A stretch of 39,637 nucleotides of DNA from Candidatus Dadabacteria bacterium (GTDB lineage: Bacteria > Desulfobacterota_D > UBA1144 > Nemesobacterales > Mycalebacteriaceae), in NCBI GenBank assembly GCA_026708565.1, contig JAPOUR010000015.1, positions 1 to 39,637 of the forward strand, read 5' to 3'. Positions 5,471 to 29,792 of this stretch are shown in pieces. The notes beneath the pieces are model-generated. The model had not been told where the DNA came from. It searched no databases and worked only from the letters and a program-made list of their open reading frames with translations. A program made the translations under genes and the position numbers. The stretch's first letter is position 1. The number at the start of each line of letters is the position of its first letter.

Positions 5471-6898
5471 ATGAACAATTATGGTTGGACAGACCTGATG
5501 TGGGCGGCGGCTGACGGAGACACTGAGGGAATACGGTGGACATTGCTGAATATGGGTGAGTATGTAGAAGCAAGAAGTGATGTATACGGCTTTACTGCTC
5601 TGATGGTGGCGGCGCGTTTCGGACGACCCGAAGCAATTCATACATTGCTGAATGCAGGGGCGAACATAGAAGCAAGAGACAATGACGGCTACCAGAGGAC
5701 ATCTTTGATGTGGGCGGCGTATGGGGGAGACACTGAAGCAATACAGACTTTGCTGAATGCAGGGGCAAATATAGAAGCAAGAGATAACAAAGACCGCTTT
5801 ACGCCTCTGATGATTGCAGCGTATGAGGGGCACATTGAAGCAATACAGACTTTGCTGAATGCGGGGGCAAATATAGAAGCAAGAGATAAAGACCACTTTA
5901 CGCCTCTGATGATTGCAGCGTATGAGGGGCATACCGCAACAATAAAAGTATTGCTGAAAGCAGGAGCAAATACAGAAGCAAGAAGTAAAGGTGGTAATAA
6001 GACGGCTCTTATGTGGGCGGCGGATAATGGACACACCGGAGCAGTCCAGACATTGCTGAAGGCGGAAGCAGATATAAACGCAACAGATAAAGATGGCAAG
6101 ACAGTTTTGGAGAGGGTGGAATGTAAGGGAGACACCGAAGTGGTCCGAGCATTGCTGTATGCGGAAGCAGTTATAAACGCAAGAGATAAAGACTACAAGA
6201 CGGCCCTTATGTTCGCTGCGCGTTTCGGAAGAACCGAAGCAATTCAAGCATTGCTGAAAGTAGGAGCGGATATAGAAACAAAAGATAATAATGGCAAGAC
6301 GGCTCTGATGTGGGCGGCGGATAACAGACACACTAAAGCAATTCAGGCATTGCTGAAAGCGGGAGCGGATATAGAAACAAGAAATGAAGATGGCAAGACG
6401 GCTCTGATGATTGCGGTGTGTTCCGGACAAAGTGAAGCAATTCAGGCGTTATTGAATGTAGGAGCAGATATAGAGTTAAAAGATAAAGACGGCTGGACAA
6501 ACCTGATGTGGGCGGCATATTGGGGACACGCCAAAGCAATACAAGTATTGCTGAATGCGGGGGCGAATATAGAAGCAAGAGATAAAGGCGGTAAAACGGC
6601 CCTGATGTGGGCGGCGGATAACAGGCACACTAGAACAATACAGGTATTGCTGAAAGCGGGAGCGGATATAGAAACAAAGGATAATAACGGCTGGACGGCT
6701 CTGATGTGGGCGGCGCATAGGGGACACACTAAAGCAATTCAGGCATTGCTGAAAGCGGGGGCAGATATAGAAACAAGAAATGAAGATGGCGACACTGCCT
6801 TTGGTGTATGGCGTAAGTTGTGGGATTCATGGTGGAAATCGGGAGATATGCACAAAGAAGAAACCCAAACAATTTCAGAACTTCTCCGCCCAAGATGA
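5471..6898 (+). CDS. Ankyrin repeat protein (13 repeats plus cap)
   Basis: The 475-residue protein is almost entirely ankyrin repeats of about 33 residues, each with the pattern GKTALMWAA then AIQALLKAGADIE. I count 13 full repeats and a degenerate C-terminal cap. There is no signal peptide or membrane segment. A strong AGGAAAG ribosome-binding site precedes the ATG. The C-terminal cap (TAFGVWRKLW, then ISELLRPR at the very end) matches the linker of the ankyrin-nuclease protein at 23321-24262 (TAFDLWKE, then ISNLLRPT), but here the protein stops where the nuclease domain would begin. Ankyrin repeats mediate protein-protein binding. The target is unknown; it could be an effector toward a host or a partner of other island proteins. 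Confidence 0.93.
   Translation: MNNYGWTDLMWAAADGDTEGIRWTLLNMGEYVEARSDVYGFTALMVAARFGRPEAIHTLLNAGANIEARDNDGYQRTSLMWAAYGGDTEAIQTLLNAGANIEARDNKDRFTPLMIAAYEGHIEAIQTLLNAGANIEARDKDHFTPLMIAAYEGHTATIKVLLKAGANTEARSKGGNKTALMWAADNGHTGAVQTLLKAEADINATDKDGKTVLERVECKGDTEVVRALLYAEAVINARDKDYKTALMFAARFGRTEAIQALLKVGADIETKDNNGKTALMWAADNRHTKAIQALLKAGADIETRNEDGKTALMIAVCSGQSEAIQALLNVGADIELKDKDGWTNLMWAAYWGHAKAIQVLLNAGANIEARDKGGKTALMWAADNRHTRTIQVLLKAGADIETKDNNGWTALMWAAHRGHTKAIQALLKAGADIETRNEDGDTAFGVWRKLWDSWWKSGDMHKEETQTISELLRPR
5580..6795 (+). repeat. 99-bp tandem DNA repeats encoding the ankyrin units
   Basis: The ankyrin units are repeated at the DNA level with a period of about 99 bases (33 codons). Segments near 6330 and 6727, four periods apart, agree over about 70 bases with only a few differences. 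This similarity suggests recent expansion by unequal recombination or slippage, so copy number may vary between strains. Confidence 0.75.
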
Positions 6899-21444: not shown

Positions 21445-21560
21445 GGGAGATTGGGGGTTAGTTTATAATGAACGGGAAGGGGCGCAAGGGGAGAGAATCA
21501 CTTTCTTCATTTCTTGCTTCCCTTTCAGTGCTACGGTTGATTACTAATTGAAATCAGCGC

Positions 21561-21596
21561 TTGCAAGGTGTCAGAAACTCGCCTATATTTCTGACA
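21561..21596 (+). promoter_or_regulatory. AbiE promoter with overlapping operator
   Basis: TTGCAA (21561-21566), a 17-base spacer and TATATT (21584-21589) place the transcription start at about 21596, the A of the abiEi ATG. A perfect 9-bp inverted repeat TGTCAGAAA (21569-21577) / TTTCTGACA (21588-21596) spans the spacer, -10 box and start. AbiEi-type antitoxins are known to repress their own promoter at inverted repeats, so this is the likely operator. The mRNA would be leaderless. Confidence 0.65.
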
Positions 21597-22189
21597 TGAC
21601 AAGCATTAGCAACCAAATTCTGGCCCATGTCGGCGGATTGCCCGAAGGGGCGCCCGTCGCGGCCAAAAGCCTGCTCCATCTCGGCAAACGCGCTGCGGTG
21701 GATCAGGCCCTGTCGCGCCTTGCAAGGCGCGGGCGGTTGATTCGCGCCGGGCGGGGGCTTTATTTCCGTCCGGTCTCAACCCGCTTCGGCAAGCGGCCTC
21801 CCTCGGTGGAACTGGCAATCCGTGCGCTGGCCCGGCAGTGCGGAGAGGTCATCGTGTCCGGCGGCGCAGCCGCTGCAAACAATCTCGGACTTACAACTCA
21901 GGTGCCGGTGCGGTATATCTATCTGACATCGGGGCGCAGCCGCGAGATGAGCCTCGGCGGGCAGATTGTGGAACTCCGGCACGCTCCCCGCTGGCAACTG
22001 GCTTTGGCTGGTCGTCCCGCCGGGCAGGCGGTCCGCGCGCTGGCTTGGTTAGGCCCGGAGGAAACCGGCGCGGCGCTTGAAAAACTGAAGCGCGTCCTCC
22101 CCTCCTCCGCTTTTAAGGAACTGGTTGCCGCCACACCGCAACTGCCGACATGGTTGGCCTTGAGTGTCAACAAGGTGGCGCATGGCTGA
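21596..22189 (+). CDS. abiEi: AbiEi-like antitoxin (DUF6088 type)
   Basis: The 197-residue protein is the antitoxin and autorepressor of a type IV toxin-antitoxin pair. Its N terminus is a winged helix (about 5-60; ALSRLARRGRLIRAGRGLYF is the recognition-wing part). The C-terminal domain has SGGAAAANNLGLTTQVP and YLTSGRSRE, as in DUF6088/AbiEi proteins. I chose the ATG at 21596, where promoter geometry predicts transcription to begin; an upstream TTG at 21548 would put the promoter inside the gene. It overlaps the toxin gene by 8 bases. Composition is GC-rich, so the pair may be long resident. Confidence 0.85.
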   Translation: MTSISNQILAHVGGLPEGAPVAAKSLLHLGKRAAVDQALSRLARRGRLIRAGRGLYFRPVSTRFGKRPPSVELAIRALARQCGEVIVSGGAAAANNLGLTTQVPVRYIYLTSGRSREMSLGGQIVELRHAPRWQLALAGRPAGQAVRALAWLGPEETGAALEKLKRVLPSSAFKELVAATPQLPTWLALSVNKVAHG

Positions 22190-23195
22190 GAGATTCATGG
22201 GTTTGTCCGCGAGGAGTCGGCGTAATGCGCTGGAAGTCGCGGCTACGAAGTCCGGACGGCCCGCTCACTTGCTTGAAAAGGATGTTTGGGTTGTTTGGGC
22301 GTTGCAAACCCTTTTTGAATCGCCGTTTGGAGAACATCTGGTTTTCAAGGGCGGCACATCTTTGTCCAAAGCGCATAATGTAATCAAGCGTTTTTCGGAA
22401 GATGTGGATATTACCTATGACATTCGGAAAATTATTCCGGACTTGATAGGCGCAGATGGTGAGGCGCTACCTAAAACGGGCAGTCAAGAGAAGCGCTGGT
22501 CCAAAGAAATTCGGAAACGTCTGCCGGATTGGGTTACAGGGTCTGTGCAACCGCAGATAGACCGAACCATTCGTCAAGAAGAACTAAATGCTACGACGAG
22601 CGCGGAAAATGACAAACTGTTTATCAAATACAAACCTGCAATAGCCGGGTCAAATTATGTTGCCCCTCGGGTAATGCTTGAATTCGGGGCGCGCTCAACA
22701 GGCGAACCGGCGAGTGTTCATGGAGTAACTTGTGATGCCGCCGACTTGCTTGATGACGGGCTGGTATTCCCAATTGCGCGTCCCAATACGATGAAAGCGG
22801 AGCGCACTTTCTGGGAAAAAGCCACGGCGATTCACGTCTACTGCCTTCAAAAGAGACTCAGAGGAAAACGCTTCTCGCGGCACTTTTACGACCTTGTCAA
22901 ACTGGATGATGCGGGTATCGCTGACTCCGCAATAAGTGACAGGGATTTAGCCCGGAGTGTTGCAAAGCACAAGAGCGTATTTTTTGCTGAAAAGGGAGAT
23001 GATGGCAAGATCATTGATTACGAGGCCGCTGTTAGTGGAGGGCTGTGCCTTGTGCCGAAAGGCGCTGCGAGAGACAGTTTGAGAGAGGACTACGAAGATA
23101 TGATTGATGACGGTTTATTATGGGAAGAAGTTGAGGATTTTGAAAGTCTTTTGGATCATTGTTCAAGTATCGTTGCCCGTGCCAATGGTAGGTGA
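22182..23195 (+). CDS. abiEii: AbiEii/AbiGii-family nucleotidyltransferase toxin
   Basis: The 337-residue toxin belongs to the DNA polymerase-beta-like nucleotidyltransferases. Motif FKGGTSLSKAHNVIKRFSEDVDITYD (about 61-86) contains the GGTSLSK nucleotide loop and the metal-binding D-x-D. Family members such as AbiEii and MenT transfer nucleotides to targets including tRNA 3' ends, stopping growth and aborting phage infection. Thus it should be kept silent by AbiEi without direct protein binding. The ATG at 22182 lies inside the antitoxin's last codons; an in-frame ATG at 22164 is less likely. Confidence 0.88.
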   Translation: MAERFMGLSARSRRNALEVAATKSGRPAHLLEKDVWVVWALQTLFESPFGEHLVFKGGTSLSKAHNVIKRFSEDVDITYDIRKIIPDLIGADGEALPKTGSQEKRWSKEIRKRLPDWVTGSVQPQIDRTIRQEELNATTSAENDKLFIKYKPAIAGSNYVAPRVMLEFGARSTGEPASVHGVTCDAADLLDDGLVFPIARPNTMKAERTFWEKATAIHVYCLQKRLRGKRFSRHFYDLVKLDDAGIADSAISDRDLARSVAKHKSVFFAEKGDDGKIIDYEAAVSGGLCLVPKGAARDSLREDYEDMIDDGLLWEEVEDFESLLDHCSSIVARANGR

Positions 23196-23238
23196 ATATA
23201 GACCTCTCCCGTCATTCCGAGCGATCCAGAGAGGGCAA

Positions 23239-23250
23239 GGGGAATTCCCC
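23239..23250. repeat. 12-bp perfect palindrome before the ankyrin-nuclease gene
   Basis: GGGGAATTCCCC lies in the 125-base gap between the abiEii stop and the ankyrin-nuclease ATG. It could be a protein-binding site or part of a dispersed intergenic element; the surrounding CGTCATTCCGAGC text is reminiscent of such elements. Its role is unknown. Confidence 0.4.
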
Positions 23251-23320
23251 GTTGACAGAAACGGCTGTTACTATTAGGTTTTCCGCCATTCAATTAAACA
23301 ATGACAGGAGTGGGCGAGAG

Positions 23321-24262
23321 ATGGAAAAAATAGCAAGCGATGATAGGAAAACGGCGTTGATACGGGCGGCAGAGGATGGCGATACCAAAGCAATATGGGA
23401 ATCACTGGAAGCAGGGGCGGATATAGAGGAAACAGAAGATAATAAAGGCTGGACACCTCTAATGCGGGTAGCGGCTGACGGAAACACTAAAGCAATACTG
23501 GCATTGCTGGAAGCGGGAGCAGACATAGAAGCAAGGGATAGATACGGCGGGACGGCTCTGATGAAGGCAGTGAAAAAAGGACATACCAAAGCAATAAGGG
23601 TATTGGTAGAAGCAGGGGCGGATATAGAAACGAGGCATAATGGTGGTTGGACGGCTTTTGACCTGTGGAAAGAGAGAGAGGAAAATGAGAGAAAAAATCA
23701 GGTGGCACTGATGTCGGCCTTTGGACTGGGGGAAGAGAAAGGGAAGAGACAGGAGATATCAAACTTACTCAGGCCAACAAGTCTAAGAGGTGACAAAACA
23801 AATATCGACAAATCTTACATAAAAGTGGATGACTCGAACGCTCATAGAGTTTCTTTCTCTACAGAAGCGGAGTTGGAAAATTTTCTTTGTTCACATTGGG
23901 AGAACACTGTCTTTGGCAAGGGCTTTGACATTTACAGAGACACGGAAGGGCGAAGCGGTAAGCAATACCCTACAGACTTGGAAGAACGGATTGATATTCT
24001 TGCTATAAGCAAAGACAGAAAAACCTTTCTTGTAGTTGAACTGAAAGTGAGCAAAGCCCCCGATACCGTTGTCGCGCAATGCCAGCGCTACATTGGCTTT
24101 GTCAAAGAGAAATTGGCAAAGAAGAGTCAGGTAGTCCGAGGCGTAATAATCGCCACAGAAAAAGACAAGAAGGTGGAAAGATCCTTGTCAGAAGTGTCTA
24201 ACATTGACTTCTGCACATACAAGATTGACTATGGGGCTGTTCATCTTGAGAAGGTTGAGTAA
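23321..24262 (+). CDS. Ankyrin repeat protein fused to a PD-(D/E)XK nuclease domain
   Basis: The 313-residue protein has three to four ankyrin repeats (about 10-115; GWTPLMRVAADGNTKAILAL). A Lys/Glu-rich linker runs to ISNLLRP (about 146-152), followed by a restriction-endonuclease-like domain (about 180-310). That domain shows a helix Glu in TEAELENFL (181-189), Asp225 in ERIDILAIS, Glu240-Leu-Lys242 in LVVELKVSK and Gln253 in VVAQCQRY. This is the D-x14-E-x-K plus Q pattern of DUF91/NucS-like nucleases. I chose the ATG at 23321; the reading upstream is an intergenic element. It is 126 bases downstream of the AbiE toxin. DNA cleavage guided by an ankyrin-bound partner is an inference. Confidence 0.85.
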   Translation: MEKIASDDRKTALIRAAEDGDTKAIWESLEAGADIEETEDNKGWTPLMRVAADGNTKAILALLEAGADIEARDRYGGTALMKAVKKGHTKAIRVLVEAGADIETRHNGGWTAFDLWKEREENERKNQVALMSAFGLGEEKGKRQEISNLLRPTSLRGDKTNIDKSYIKVDDSNAHRVSFSTEAELENFLCSHWENTVFGKGFDIYRDTEGRSGKQYPTDLEERIDILAISKDRKTFLVVELKVSKAPDTVVAQCQRYIGFVKEKLAKKSQVVRGVIIATEKDKKVERSLSEVSNIDFCTYKIDYGAVHLEKVE

Positions 24263-24309
24263 GAATCTTCTTACTGCCTATAACATTCGATGCCTAACCC
24301 GCTACGCTG

Positions 24310-24504
24310 TTACAAATCATGAAGTTCCGTAACAGCATTCATGTAACTTTCACAATCGCCATCTCTCTTGTAACTTTTGCCACCTCTTTTGTAGATTGTG
24401 CCGTCCTTTGCCATACCATATATTACTTTGCTCAACCGTATCAAACCTGATTTGCTACAGAATTTTCTCAGGTCCGTTATCTTATATACTAATGCTTTAT
24501 TCAT
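24310..24504 (-). CDS. Small protein, possibly winged helix
   Basis: This 64-residue, AT-rich gene has an excellent AAGGAG ribosome-binding site 8 bases before the ATG at 24504. The sequence YKITDLRKFCSKSGLIRL, then a helix (SKVIYGMAKDGTIYKRG) and KSYK, reads like a helix-turn-helix followed by a two-strand wing (DGTIYKRGGKSYK). That suggests a small DNA-binding regulator. No family can be named with certainty. It is convergent with the ankyrin-nuclease gene, with 47 bases between stops, and divergent from the HEPN-like gene, so it could regulate either. The ATG was preferred over an upstream start because of the ribosome-binding site. Confidence 0.6.
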   Translation of the reverse strand: MNKALVYKITDLRKFCSKSGLIRLSKVIYGMAKDGTIYKRGGKSYKRDGDCESYMNAVTELHDL

Positions 24505-24635
24505 TATAAATTCTCCTTGAATCACCCACCTATGCGATGTATGACTCATCTCTAAATTAAGCACGGACAGCCACTTGTCAAGAAGAAGTGCCAACACTTA
24601 CTTTCAAGTAGGGCTTACTCTGCTCAAAAAATTTC

Positions 24636-24772
24636 TGTCCCACCCCCTCTGGATTCCTTGTCGGAGCAAGGAATGACGTAAAGGTGGCTCCGCTACCACC
24701 GGATTTCACCCCGTCTGACCCGCAAAAAGCGATTTCAGAAAGAAGGCTTCAACCATTCGGGAGAGTAGCAGT
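24636..24772 (+). repeat. Extended dispersed repeat, copy 2
   Basis: The 32-bp hairpin repeat at 24646-24677 is identical to the copy at 7299-7330. Beyond it, similarity to copy 3 resumes, with both copies sharing GATTTCAGAA-like text, CTTCAACCATTC and GAGTAGCAGT. The whole 137-base element ends 62 bases before the HEPN-like gene. Apart from this repeat and the promoter at 24785-24814, I see nothing in 24505-24834. Confidence 0.75.
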
Positions 24773-24784
24773 CAACATAAAGGG

Positions 24785-24814
24785 TTGCCCGTAATAAGAC
24801 CTGCTTGATATAAT
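24785..24814 (+). promoter_or_regulatory. Promoter of the HEPN-like gene
   Basis: TTGCCC (24785-24790), an 18-base spacer and a perfect TATAAT (24809-24814) precede the ATG at 24835, giving a leader of about 14 bases with a weak AAAGAAAG ribosome-binding site. Confidence 0.55.
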
Positions 24815-24834
24815 AGTTTTGTAAAGAAAGTGCT

Positions 24835-25839
24835 ATGAGTGTGGGCAAAGATGACACTAAAGATGTAGTTAACCCGCTACTTCAAAACGCGATATCTTCA
24901 ATCCAATTGGGATTGCAAGACTTTGAATCTGATGATAAGCGTCGCATCATTTCTGCTACACGTAACCTTTACTCTGGGGTGCTTCTGCTCTGTAAGGAAG
25001 TTCTGCGTAGACTGTCACCTCCAGAATCTAAAGATGTGCTCATTTTCGCCAAGAAACAAGCAAAAAAACAGGCCGATGGCACCATAATATTCGTTGGTGC
25101 TGGCAGAAATACTGTTGGTCGCCTTGAAATAGAAGAATGCTTCAAACAACTTCAAATACAAGTCAATTTATCAAAACTAGGTCGCCTTGGGAAAATTCGC
25201 AATGAGATAGAACACAAACACCCTAACCATGCACCCGCACTAATCCAAGAAGCGGTCGCGGATGCAATGCCGATTATTCGCGATGTGATTGTGAATCAAC
25301 TTGAAACTTCTCCGCCTCAACTTTTAGGTAAGCAAGCATGGAATATATTGCTTGGAGAAGCGGAAGTTTTGAAGAGAGAGCAAGATGCTTGTAGGGAAAG
25401 TTTCAATAAGGTCGTTTGGGGAAGTGCAACTATAGAACGCTCATTAAACGATTTCCATTGCCAGAAGTGCTCGTCTACACTAATTAAAAACAACAACAAG
25501 ACAACCATTCATCCTGAGGACTTGATTTTAGTGTGCTCTGAATGTGATGAGAAATCGGATATAGATAGTGTAATAGAGGTAGCATTAGAAGAAAGTCTCC
25601 GGGGAGACAATTACATCGCTATAAAAGATGGCGCCGGACCAGTAATAGATACGTGTCCCGAGTGCTTCAAGGAAACTTATGTTTTCGCAGAAGGTCAGTG
25701 CCTTAATCCGTATTGCGACTTCACTTTGTCAGACAAAAACTGTGGCATTTGCGGACAAGAGTTGACTCTGGATGACTACCTACATAGCAATGGTAGCCTG
25801 TGTAGTTATCACTTTGATACGATGTCAAAGGATGATTGA
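24835..25839 (+). CDS. HEPN-like protein with C-terminal zinc ribbons
   Basis: The 334-residue AT-rich protein has a helical N-terminal half (about 10-155) ending in RNEIEH (122-127). This R-X4-H motif is typical of HEPN ribonuclease domains. The C-terminal half is Cys-rich, with C209/C212 and C234/C237 forming one zinc ribbon and C274/C277, C289/C294, C303/C306 and C323 suggesting one or two more. HEPN proteins often cleave RNA in toxin-antitoxin and anti-phage systems, and the ribbons could bind nucleic acid. The motif and Cys pattern are visible; RNase activity is inferred. No antitoxin nucleotidyltransferase (MNT) lies beside it. Base composition differs from the core genes, suggesting transfer. 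Confidence 0.7.
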   Translation: MSVGKDDTKDVVNPLLQNAISSIQLGLQDFESDDKRRIISATRNLYSGVLLLCKEVLRRLSPPESKDVLIFAKKQAKKQADGTIIFVGAGRNTVGRLEIEECFKQLQIQVNLSKLGRLGKIRNEIEHKHPNHAPALIQEAVADAMPIIRDVIVNQLETSPPQLLGKQAWNILLGEAEVLKREQDACRESFNKVVWGSATIERSLNDFHCQKCSSTLIKNNNKTTIHPEDLILVCSECDEKSDIDSVIEVALEESLRGDNYIAIKDGAGPVIDTCPECFKETYVFAEGQCLNPYCDFTLSDKNCGICGQELTLDDYLHSNGSLCSYHFDTMSKDD

Positions 25840-25931
25840 TTATCATTGTGGCATGTCTTCTCGCCTACAATTGACATAGATTGACTATTCAAAACCTACA
25901 CAACGCCGATCACCCTTCATGTATAACAATT

Positions 25932-26072
25932 TGCCCCACCCACTCTGGATTCCTTGTCGGAGCAAGGAATGACAGGAAGGTAGGCTTCTGCGCCCGCCAC
26001 CTTTAAGCCAGTCAGATTCACAAGAAATGGTTTCAGAAAAAAGACTTCAACCATTCTTGGTAGAGTAGCAGT
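25932..26072 (+). repeat. Extended dispersed repeat, copy 3
   Basis: The 32-bp hairpin repeat is at 25942-25973 (first base differs from the other copies). A diverged copy of the same downstream segment as copy 2 follows, ending in TAGAGTAGCAGT. It fills most of the 262-base gap between the HEPN-like gene and the autotransporter. Confidence 0.75.
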
Positions 26073-26101
26073 TTGCCACCGAGGAAACAGTCATTGTCAT
26101 T

Positions 26102-29086
26102 ATGGTGGCGGGGTTGCCATTGACATATCTCCCCTATTTATTACAATCAGCAAAACCAACCTGTTCAGGAACAACCCTTTTGAAAACCATCAAACAGCAC
26201 GCTTCCATTTTCATCTTGCGGGTAGCAATCTGTTTTGCCGTTGCATTGCTGTCGCTTGGCTTTGCGGCAACTCCAGCGGAGGCCCAAGAACAGGCCGGGT
26301 TCTCCATCGCGGACGCCCATGCGGTTGAGGGCGAAACAATGATTTTTGAAGTAACGATTAGTCAGGCGCAGACGGAAACGGTTATGGTGAATTATGCAAC
26401 CGCCGATGCCACTCCGGTATCAGCAACGGCGGGAACTGACTATACGGCAACAAGCGGCACACTGATGTTTGCACGCGGTGAGACCACAAAGACAATAGGG
26501 GTGGCGATTGTCGATGACTCAGAAAATGAGGACATTCCTGCTAACGTGGGAGTTTCGTCGGGAACTGTGGATGAACGATTTCTGGTCAGACTGTCAAGTC
26601 CGAGCGGGGAATTGAATCTCATTCGTAGTGAGGCAACGGGCACCATTCTGGATAATGAGGGCACATTGGCAACAGTCAGTGCGAGTAGCGCTGTCGTTAC
26701 GGAAGGCGGGTCAGTATCATTCACATTTGCCGTCGCGCGGAGCGCGGCTGAAAGTTCATATAACTTTACCCTTAATTACGACCTCAATATCAGTGACGGC
26801 TACATGGGGAGTTTCAGTCCCAGTGGAGTAGACCCCTCCACTCCGCACATTCGCAGAGATAACACCATAGTTTGGTTCACCTACAATGTGGCGGACAATA
26901 ACATTCCCCAGTCCAACGGGTTTATAACAATCGCCCTCATCCCGAAGGACCCAAGAGAGCAGTTTTCCTACGGTGTAGGCGAACAAAACACCGTTACCGT
27001 AGAAATTATTGACAATGACCGCGCATTCTCAATCTCGCCGGTCGCACCGACTGTGAGTGAAGATGCGGACAGTATTACTCTAACTGTAGCGCTGAATACG
27101 GAGATAAACGAAGAGGCCTCGGTGCAATATACAACCTCGGACGGAACGGCGGAGGAACCCGGCGACTACACGGACACATCGGGGACACTGAATTTTGCTA
27201 CGGGAGAAACGGAGAAAACTATAATGATTCCGATCTTGCCGGACACTGTTTACGGAGAGGAAGACGAGACATTTACGGTAACTCTGTCGGGCGAAATGGG
27301 GGCTGGCATCCAAACAGCAACGGCAACAGTTACTATCACTGACGCTGATGACAGTCCACCTGTTCTTACGGTTGATGATGTTTTTGCAAGCGAAGGAGAA
27401 ACACTGACCTTCACCGCGCGTTTGACGGACGGAAGCAACAATCCGGCTACTTCCGTCAATGATGTAACCTTCACTTGGCAGACCCTCACACAAGGGTCTA
27501 CGGTGGGACGCTATACAAGCGCCCCCGCCACTACGCTGACCATTAATGCGGGACAGGCGGAAAGAATGTTCACCGTGGACACGACCGGAAACACGGAACA
27601 GGATGGTAACGGCGTGGTCATTGTTCAATTATCAAACCTGACGGGCGCGAGTTTCATCGGTGACCCGGCTCCCGACACCGTAACGGCGACCGGAACGATA
27701 CGGGATGATGAAACCCTGGTCACGGAGGAAGCCAACAAAGCCGTTTTGCCGCAAGCGGCGGCCGTTGCCGCATTACAGACGGCGAAAACCGTAGGCGGCA
27801 GAGTGAATGCGGCTTTTGACGGTCTGGGAAACAACGGTGTTTCCGTGCATGGGAGGGGATGGAAACAATTCCTTGCGGCGGAAGCGGCAAGGAAAAACGA
27901 ACGGGCGGAGTTGCCCAATTTGGAACTGCCTGACCTTGCATTTGCGTTTGCGGCTAAAAATGGCGGATGGATTGTCGACTCCGGAGGCCCGTTTGACCGT
28001 TTGGGCGTCTGGGGACGTGGCTACTACAAGGCGTTTGAGGTGGAAGACAAAAACAATGCACCAGACTTTGACGGTAGCATTGTCGGCGGAATGATAGGGG
28101 CGGACACGCTTTTGACGGACAATGTGCTTGCGGGCATCGGTTTCAACCTTTTTCAGACCGCCGCTGATTACGAAACGGGCGGCGGCGTAGCCGATCCGAA
28201 AGGCACGCACGAGATGTTTGTGTGGAGTGTTCACCCGTATTTCGGCTGGCGTCCCGACACCCGGATGACGTTCTGGGGAACAGTAGGCTACGGAATGGGA
28301 GACAACGAAACGACGGAAACCGGAGGCGACACCCGCAAAAGGAATGTGATGTATATGATGGCGGGAGCGGGCGGAAGCGGTCTTTTGTATGAAGCCGCCA
28401 TCGGCGGCGGAACGGTTAGGGTTAATGCAATCGGCGACCTTGTACTCGCCCGGATTTCGGAAGACAATGGAATTGATTCCGATGCCGGAACGGTTCGTTG
28501 CGGATTTGAGGGTGAGTTTGAGACGGCAATGTCAGGCGGCTCTTCGGCCGGTGTTTCAGTTGAGTTGGCGTATCGCGGCGATTTTGGAGACACGGTTGGC
28601 GGAAGCGGCCTTGAGGGTGGCGGCGGTGTGAACTTCCGAGTCCCGTCCGCGGGAGTAACCGTTAATGTTGACGGTCGTTATCTTGTGTACCACAGCGAGG
28701 AAGTAAGCGAATACGGCTTTTCCGGCAATGTTCTCTGGTCGCACGGAAGCACGGGCCCCTATGCATTGTTCTCTCCGAAATGGGGCGCAACGAATGACCG
28801 CAGAGATGATCTTTGGGAAAACGGTGCAAACGGTCGCCAGATAGAAGCGGAGACCGGAGAGAGGCGTTACAACTTTGAAGCTGGTTACAGCATTGCTCTT
28901 CCGGAGGAGAGGGGCATTCTGAAAATCTTCGCAAGAAGCGAGATGGAATTGAGGTCAACGGTTGTCCGTTCGGGCGGAATCAATTTTAAGACAAACAACG
29001 GCCTGAGTGCCGGATTTGAGACCGTTTCCCGTATAGGCGAAACACCGGAGCACCGGGGTTACTTGCGCTACAGCGGAATGTTTTAA
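26102..29086 (+). CDS. Calx-beta domain autotransporter
   Basis: The 994-residue outer-membrane protein has a long N terminus with a hydrophobic signal helix ending ATPAEAQ (about 36-61). Three to four Calx-beta domains follow (about 64-180, 188-305, 307-418, 420-535), recognised by GTDYTATSGTL or GDYTDTSGTL, GETTKTI-like strands and DNE/DND/DAD ends. After a linker, a C-terminal autotransporter beta-barrel (about 640-994) ends in the outer-membrane signature YLRYSGMF. Calx-beta domains often bind calcium or mediate adhesion. The start is uncertain: ATG 26102 lacks a close ribosome-binding site, while a TTG near 26178 has AGGA upstream and gives a normal-length signal peptide. Confidence 0.88.
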   Translation: MVAGLPLTYLPYLLQSAKPTCSGTTLLKTIKQHASIFILRVAICFAVALLSLGFAATPAEAQEQAGFSIADAHAVEGETMIFEVTISQAQTETVMVNYATADATPVSATAGTDYTATSGTLMFARGETTKTIGVAIVDDSENEDIPANVGVSSGTVDERFLVRLSSPSGELNLIRSEATGTILDNEGTLATVSASSAVVTEGGSVSFTFAVARSAAESSYNFTLNYDLNISDGYMGSFSPSGVDPSTPHIRRDNTIVWFTYNVADNNIPQSNGFITIALIPKDPREQFSYGVGEQNTVTVEIIDNDRAFSISPVAPTVSEDADSITLTVALNTEINEEASVQYTTSDGTAEEPGDYTDTSGTLNFATGETEKTIMIPILPDTVYGEEDETFTVTLSGEMGAGIQTATATVTITDADDSPPVLTVDDVFASEGETLTFTARLTDGSNNPATSVNDVTFTWQTLTQGSTVGRYTSAPATTLTINAGQAERMFTVDTTGNTEQDGNGVVIVQLSNLTGASFIGDPAPDTVTATGTIRDDETLVTEEANKAVLPQAAAVAALQTAKTVGGRVNAAFDGLGNNGVSVHGRGWKQFLAAEAARKNERAELPNLELPDLAFAFAAKNGGWIVDSGGPFDRLGVWGRGYYKAFEVEDKNNAPDFDGSIVGGMIGADTLLTDNVLAGIGFNLFQTAADYETGGGVADPKGTHEMFVWSVHPYFGWRPDTRMTFWGTVGYGMGDNETTETGGDTRKRNVMYMMAGAGGSGLLYEAAIGGGTVRVNAIGDLVLARISEDNGIDSDAGTVRCGFEGEFETAMSGGSSAGVSVELAYRGDFGDTVGGSGLEGGGGVNFRVPSAGVTVNVDGRYLVYHSEEVSEYGFSGNVLWSHGSTGPYALFSPKWGATNDRRDDLWENGANGRQIEAETGERRYNFEAGYSIALPEERGILKIFARSEMELRSTVVRSGGINFKTNNGLSAGFETVSRIGETPEHRGYLRYSGMF

Positions 29087-29124
29087 GTCAGCACGAATTC
29101 GTCTGCTGTTGTCCGCATGTCCGT

Positions 29125-29142
29125 CTTTTGCCCTCGCAAAAG
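29125..29142. terminator. Possible hairpin after the autotransporter gene
   Basis: CTTTTGC and GCAAAAG are separated by 4 bases, 38 bases after the autotransporter stop. The stem is short and no U-run follows on the plus strand, so it is a weak candidate. I see no gene in the rest of 29087-29371. Confidence 0.3.
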
Positions 29143-29371
29143 AGTTAACATGTTGATTTAACCCGCCTTAATCTCATACAACACATCAACAGTATCAGAT
29201 AACATCCTGCCATGCATAACGAATTACCGTTCACCAATGAACCCGATGTCTGCTGTCCAATGGCGTATTTGAACCGAAACAGGCATCTTTCAACAGCGCG
29301 AACCGCCTCGCGCCAGCCTTCAAAATTCACACTTCCTTTCCTGACCTGAATCCGCTATCTCTCTTTCATTG

Positions 29372-29773
29372 TCAGCTTGGCTCAGTATCTATCATCTCAA
29401 CCAACTGAATAAGATTCCCGCAGGTATCATCGAACACCGCCACGCGAACCGGCCCCGCATCCACCGGTTCTTGAACAAAGTTCACGCCCCGGTCGCCGAG
29501 TCTTTTCCGCTCTGCATCAAGATTGTCCACTTGAAAAGAGTGCGCCGGAATGCCATCGGAAACCAGCGCATCCTTGTAGGGTTTAACGGCAGGATGGCTG
29601 CTTGGCTCAAGTAACACTTCCGTTCCCTCAGGGTCTTCACCGGACACGACAGTCAACCAGCGATTTTCACCCAAAGGAATATTGTTCTTAACCTTGAAGC
29701 CAAGAATATCAGTGTAAAACCTCTCCGCTTTGTCCTGGTCATCTACAAAGACGCTGGTCACATAAACTTTCAT
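29372..29773 (-). CDS. VOC/glyoxalase superfamily protein
   Basis: The 133-residue protein follows the beta-alpha-beta-beta-beta pattern of vicinal-oxygen-chelate proteins. VYVTSVFVDDQDKAERFYTD and ILGFKV start the first half, HSFQVDNLDAERKRL starts the second, and VAVFDDTCGNLIQLVE closes it. Metal ligands characteristic of true glyoxalase I cannot be assigned with confidence, and many members are of unknown function. The ATG at 29773 gives the standard N terminus; a longer reading runs into the thiC end. It follows thiC with a 19-base gap. Confidence 0.85.
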   Translation of the reverse strand: MKVYVTSVFVDDQDKAERFYTDILGFKVKNNIPLGENRWLTVVSGEDPEGTEVLLEPSSHPAVKPYKDALVSDGIPAHSFQVDNLDAERKRLGDRGVNFVQEPVDAGPVRVAVFDDTCGNLIQLVEMIDTEPS

Positions 29774-29792
29774 TACATGCCCGCCAAAACCG

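Follow-up and report, generated by a model that had tools for sequence, protein, structure and literature searches.

Ankyrin repeats are known to gate a nuclease in the antiviral defence protein RNase L, where the ligand is 2-5A and the target is RNA. The occurrence of ankyrin repeats and a PD-(D/E)XK nuclease in a single protein is also already known, as some CifB nucleases bear such repeats (PMC12445526). A further described family is the phage-defence candidate PDC-S02 of PADLOC, annotated as 'endonuclease NucS domain-containing protein'. The gene considered here lies in a stretch of 39,637 nucleotides from a Candidatus Dadabacteria bacterium (contig JAPOUR010000015.1), referred to below as the window, and encodes a protein of 313 amino acids in which ankyrin repeats precede a nuclease domain. 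As modelled, the C-terminal domain of this protein is a PD-(D/E)XK fold of the NucS type with an intact catalytic set. Sequence comparison indicates that the protein is a lineage-specific chimera, in which a NucS-type DNase of the PDC-S02 kind, lacking its usual N-terminal domain, is joined to ankyrin repeats of the lineage's own kind. The replacement by ankyrin in this nuclease family, with paralogues in AbiE and Septu insertions, was not found elsewhere in the searched data. The domain replacement, along with the neighbouring defence genes, suggests a DNA cutter under the control of a bound partner.

Domain architecture and nuclease fold

The reading frame is uninterrupted from the ATG at 23321 to the stop codon at 24262, and an AGGAG-like ribosome-binding site is located ~10 nt 5' of the ATG. 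The encoded protein comprises three to four ankyrin repeats with an end cap, a linker of ~22 residues and the C-terminal nuclease domain (Table 1). Pfam matches above the curated cut-offs cover residues 13-105 (Ank_4, 1.7e-18; Ank_2, 6.6e-17), and these matches, along with a 99-nt periodicity, identify several tandem ankyrin units of ~33 amino acids. Three clear units of 33 residues, with start-to-start distances of 102 and 99 nt, align in register at the nucleotide level, and the last unit is degenerate ('WTAFDLW'). The end cap 'QEISNLLRP' is also found at the end of several ankyrin proteins that this genome encodes in stand-alone form. A separate ankyrin-only protein of 475 amino acids, which ends in the same cap ('...SELLRP') and has no signal peptide, is encoded elsewhere in the window (5471-6898, + strand).

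The nuclease assignment is based on profile, model and homologue comparisons. The PDDEXK_4 match (9.3e-8, best stretch 113-288) exceeds the curated cut-off in Pfam, as does NucS_C (PF01939; 7.9e-6, residues 223-300, 26.3 bits against a cut-off of 24). A profile search places the D / E-x-K / Q pattern of the domain in line with that of NucS. Only the C-terminal part of the full-length NucS equivalog was matched, and the score is well short of the cut-off (NCBIfam PRK04247, 34.5 against 216 bits). The AlphaFold2 model of residues 160-313, built with 60 aligned sequences as input, has a mean predicted local distance difference test (pLDDT) of 88 and a predicted template modelling score (pTM) of 0.80. 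In a Foldseek comparison with the PDB the top matches of this model were NucS (2vld, E 2.1e-6) and EndoMS (5gke, E 1.7e-5), both with a probability of 1.00. The best NucS/EndoMS matches span E 2.1e-6 to 3.3e-4, in agreement with an alpha-beta-beta-beta-alpha-beta core in the modelled domain, and weaker matches were obtained with other PD-(D/E)XK effector nucleases, namely Card1 and Can2. The catalytic residues Asp225, Glu240, Lys242 and Gln253 are exactly where a preliminary description of this DNA had placed them, and none of the 82 homologues deviates at any of these positions. The NucS-type fold proposed there was thus recovered in the model. A different fold or homologues without the D/E/K residues, either of which would have undermined the proposal, were looked for, and neither was seen. 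The in-register alignment of the repeat units and the invariance of the D/E/K/Q set in the homologues also indicate that the features of the fusion are not due to chance.

The scan of 84,980 genomes yielded 229 loci with relatives of the nuclease domain, and the homologue set (n=82) consists of the best 80 of these loci and two viral contigs. All 82 homologues, which are spread over many phyla, share one architecture, a conserved N-terminal domain of ~175 residues followed by the nuclease, mostly with a length of ~308 amino acids; in one of them the N-terminal domain is shortened through the choice of start. This parental form corresponds to PDC-S02. The window protein matches its profile (PDLC04824, E 3.7e-50) at positions 150-303 of 308, that is in the nuclease half, and has ankyrin repeats in place of the ~175-residue N-terminal domain. 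None of the 82 homologues contains ankyrin repeats. Homologues with the same fusion were not found outside this genome, neither among the best 80 of the 229 genome loci and the two viral contigs nor in the plasmid records covering 80% of the query. Its further claim, that ankyrin takes the place of a DNA-specificity domain, holds as far as the replacement is concerned. The label 'DNA-specificity' is unproven, because the lost domain has no match in Pfam, among PDB sequences or to EVE. Foldseek of the whole parental protein also gave nothing convincing for the N-terminal domain. An EVE (PUA-like) identity was considered for it and is unsupported (hhalign probability 6.9). A phage-borne origin was likewise rejected: phage records matched the ankyrin part only, with the nuclease not among the matches listed, and the form present in the two viral contigs is the parental one.

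Paralogues and defence-gene insertions

The genome (1.57 Mb, 60 contigs) contains three copies of the nuclease domain, that of the window and two further copies, termed C32 and C5. In all other genomes of the class this domain is absent, save for a short remnant in one genome of the order. The three paralogues form one clade (100/99), within which the window and C32 copies, both fused to ankyrin repeats, are sisters (100/98). The linker is partly common to these two proteins (TNI..KV...AH). The catalytic residues are intact in all three copies, and the pairwise ratio of nonsynonymous to synonymous substitution rates (dN/dS) of the nuclease domain is 0.23-0.27, which indicates that the domain has been maintained and its function retained. 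The C5 nuclease has no ankyrin repeats of its own and lies in a tight row on the minus strand (L024:8028-9740), which is composed of an ankyrin gene with a product predicted to bear a signal or an anchor, an open reading frame of 110 amino acids and the nuclease gene, with a 4-nt overlap and a 10-nt gap. The occurrence of the fusion at two loci and of the gene row at the third is an argument for a joint function of ankyrin and nuclease. The simplest history would be one in which the nuclease was acquired, lost its N-terminal domain and was then duplicated.

The ankyrin-nuclease gene adjoins an AbiE type IV toxin-antitoxin pair, of which it is no defined component. It starts 126 nt after the end of AbiEii at 23195, the distance given in the preliminary description, and no promoter-like or terminator-like site is listed on the + strand of the 125-nt gap. 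The interval between carB and thiC measures ~0.77 kb in the single congeneric genome compared and ~8.3 kb here. At the C32 site, the flanks are ~0.08 kb apart in the congener and 3.7 kb apart here, and the difference is a block (L023:5323-9021) with the Septu genes PtuA (7e-177) and PtuB (4e-69), an ankyrin open reading frame that begins 35 bp after PtuB, and the ankyrin-nuclease gene. As neither site holds an insertion in the congener, two of the three copies are located in variable insertions with recognised defence genes; with two genomes compared, the blocks may represent a gain here or a loss in the congener. The C5 site has conserved flanks and a different middle part. The linkage to defence is stronger than originally claimed, since the ankyrin-nuclease gene lies in one insertion with both AbiE and PDC-S64, and a paralogue is located behind the Septu pair. 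The PDC-S64 gene is bracketed by direct repeats (24636-24758 / 25932-26056; 90% over 50 nt, 71% over 70 nt) and, because of these repeats, looks separately inserted.

Table 1. Features of the ankyrin-nuclease gene and of the surrounding insertion (window positions; aa, amino acids)
Feature	Position	Strand	Basis
Ankyrin-PD-(D/E)XK fusion gene, 313 aa	23321..24262	+	Open reading frame, Pfam, PADLOC
Ankyrin domain, residues ~10-151	23348..23773	+	Pfam, repeat periodicity
Linker, residues 152-173, TSLRGDKTNIDKSYIKVDDSNA region	23774..23839	+	Sequence comparison
NucS-like PD-(D/E)XK domain (predicted), residues 174-313; Asp225, Glu240-x-Lys242, Gln253	23840..24259	+	Pfam, model, homologues
AbiEi-like antitoxin gene (same insertion, separate system)	21548..22189	+	PADLOC AbiEi 1.3e-63
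AbiEii toxin gene (same insertion, separate system)	22164..23195	+	Pfam 4.3e-38, PADLOC 2.9e-99
PDC-S64 phage-defence-candidate gene	24835..25839	+	PADLOC 5.3e-42
Calx-beta autotransporter, 994 aa (inside the carB-thiC insertion)	26102-29086	+	
carB-thiC insertion, ~8.3 kb: AbiEi, AbiEii, ankyrin-nuclease, PDC-S64, Calx-beta autotransporter	21445..29792	.	Congener comparison

Proposed function and competing explanations

As the N-termini of the window protein and of the C32 copy were checked and carry no export signal, the window protein is probably cytoplasmic. Its ankyrin arm may bind a partner. This could be a phage protein or another infection-borne ligand, or the neighbouring system could supply it as a product or protein. 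Binding of this partner would release or position the nuclease, and DNA would then be cut. We infer that cleavage may be under the control of a bound protein from phage or host, as was proposed in the preliminary description. An accessory anti-phage DNase of the cytoplasm, with an ankyrin arm that controls its activation or targeting, is the most likely explanation, and the whole chain has about an even chance of being correct. Several observations weigh against it. The window copy departs from positions that are near-invariant in the homologues (G221E, G244S, R245K, S247P, G252A), and the nuclease activity could therefore be altered. The C32 copy has a break in its ankyrin frame near L023:8110, in the vicinity of five consecutive A. 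The N-terminus of the C5 nuclease has a predicted Sec-like signal, which is unsuited to intracellular defence. About ten ankyrin genes, several with signal-like N-termini, are present genome-wide, and with such an expansion the fusion could stem from recombination between repeats or be related to interaction with a host. The type I restriction context of the parental family, by contrast, counts in favour of the anti-phage reading: the neighbours of the parental form include HsdM, HsdS and HsdR, ~8-10 each among 96 proteins, albeit in a tally that has no matched control set. A YgjP-like metallopeptidase is also recurrent among these neighbours. Some parental genes of the PDC-S02 type are located inside type I restriction operons, as on an Acinetobacter plasmid (L032:4321-13817), where the nuclease and an Abi_2 gene are part of an operon with the order S-M-S-nuclease-Abi-R-SprT.

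The ankyrin expansion, together with the predicted export of the C5 paralogue, makes a host-directed role the main rival, in which a eukaryote-like ankyrin protein of this possibly host-associated bacterium is delivered to, or acts on, a host or neighbouring cell, as has been proposed for CifB-like nucleases with ankyrin repeats and for secreted nucleases of symbionts. Such a reading is reasonable in light of the literature on sponge symbionts, whose genomes are enriched in ankyrin proteins (PMC8163846), on CifB (PMC12445526) and on Cardinium, in which putatively secreted PD-(D/E)XK proteins are expanded (PMC6387759). It is considered unlikely, however, as the window and C32 copies lack an export signal and lie beside AbiE and Septu genes, and the wider context of the nuclease family is type I restriction. 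The pairing of ankyrin and nuclease, both as a fusion and as the tight C5 row, would also be expected of a toxin with a built-in antidote, where ankyrin acts as an inhibitor in cis (in trans in the C5 row) and the protein is an addiction or abortive module instead of a phage sensor. In some polymorphic toxin systems immunity is conferred by ankyrin proteins, and the 110-amino-acid product of the C5 row has a weak match to Imm64 (E 0.0056). This match is below the cut-off, however, the parental proteins of 308 amino acids do without an ankyrin partner, and the only antitoxin gene adjoining the window gene is AbiEi, which belongs to the AbiE pair; the explanation is accordingly held to be quite improbable. 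The same low standing is given to a fortuitous fusion, produced by recombination in a genome rich in ankyrin genes and islands, in which the ankyrin repeats would serve no particular purpose and the nuclease would be a remnant that may be decaying. The presence of a complete ankyrin unit of the stand-alone type, with its end cap, ahead of the linker is consistent with such an origin, as are the broken C32 frame and the nuclease remnant in another genome of the order. The low dN/dS and the intact catalytic residues of the three copies argue against it, as does the retention of the fused architecture and a similar linker in two diverged copies.

The locus is of significance because a phage-defence-candidate nuclease, the parental form of which is known, has clearly had a domain replaced at the end presumed to act as sensor, and because a single genome has paralogues in two distinct defence cassettes. 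If the ankyrin repeats gate the nuclease of the proposed anti-phage DNase, this would show that protein-binding repeats of the host type have been recruited as bacterial immune sensors. With 313 amino acids, the protein is small and testable.

Comparison with known systems

The ankyrin-bearing CifB proteins of Wolbachia and other arthropod symbionts resemble the window protein in combining ankyrin and PD-(D/E)XK domains. They are, however, large, modular and paired with CifA, whereas the window protein is short, belongs to another PD-(D/E)XK family and is encoded beside AbiE. A CifB-type assignment was rejected, the genes upstream being AbiEi and AbiEii (Pfam, PADLOC) and not a CifA partner. 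RNase L is a functional analogue only, with an unrelated nuclease domain and no homology outside the ankyrin repeats. A more far-reaching proposal, in which an acquired DNase domain was re-armed with lineage ankyrins and plugged into AbiE and Septu cassettes as a ligand-gated nuclease, similar to RNase L but acting on DNA, is speculative and is given a low probability. The nuclease domain of PDC-S02 is about 42-57% identical to that of the window protein, with all catalytic residues in common. The two differ in that the window protein has ankyrin repeats instead of the ~175-residue N-terminal domain and no adjoining type I restriction genes. The closest solved fold is that of the mismatch endonuclease NucS/EndoMS (DUF91), which has the same Asp / Glu-x-Lys / Gln pattern, and the window protein carries ankyrin repeats where NucS has its N-terminal domain.
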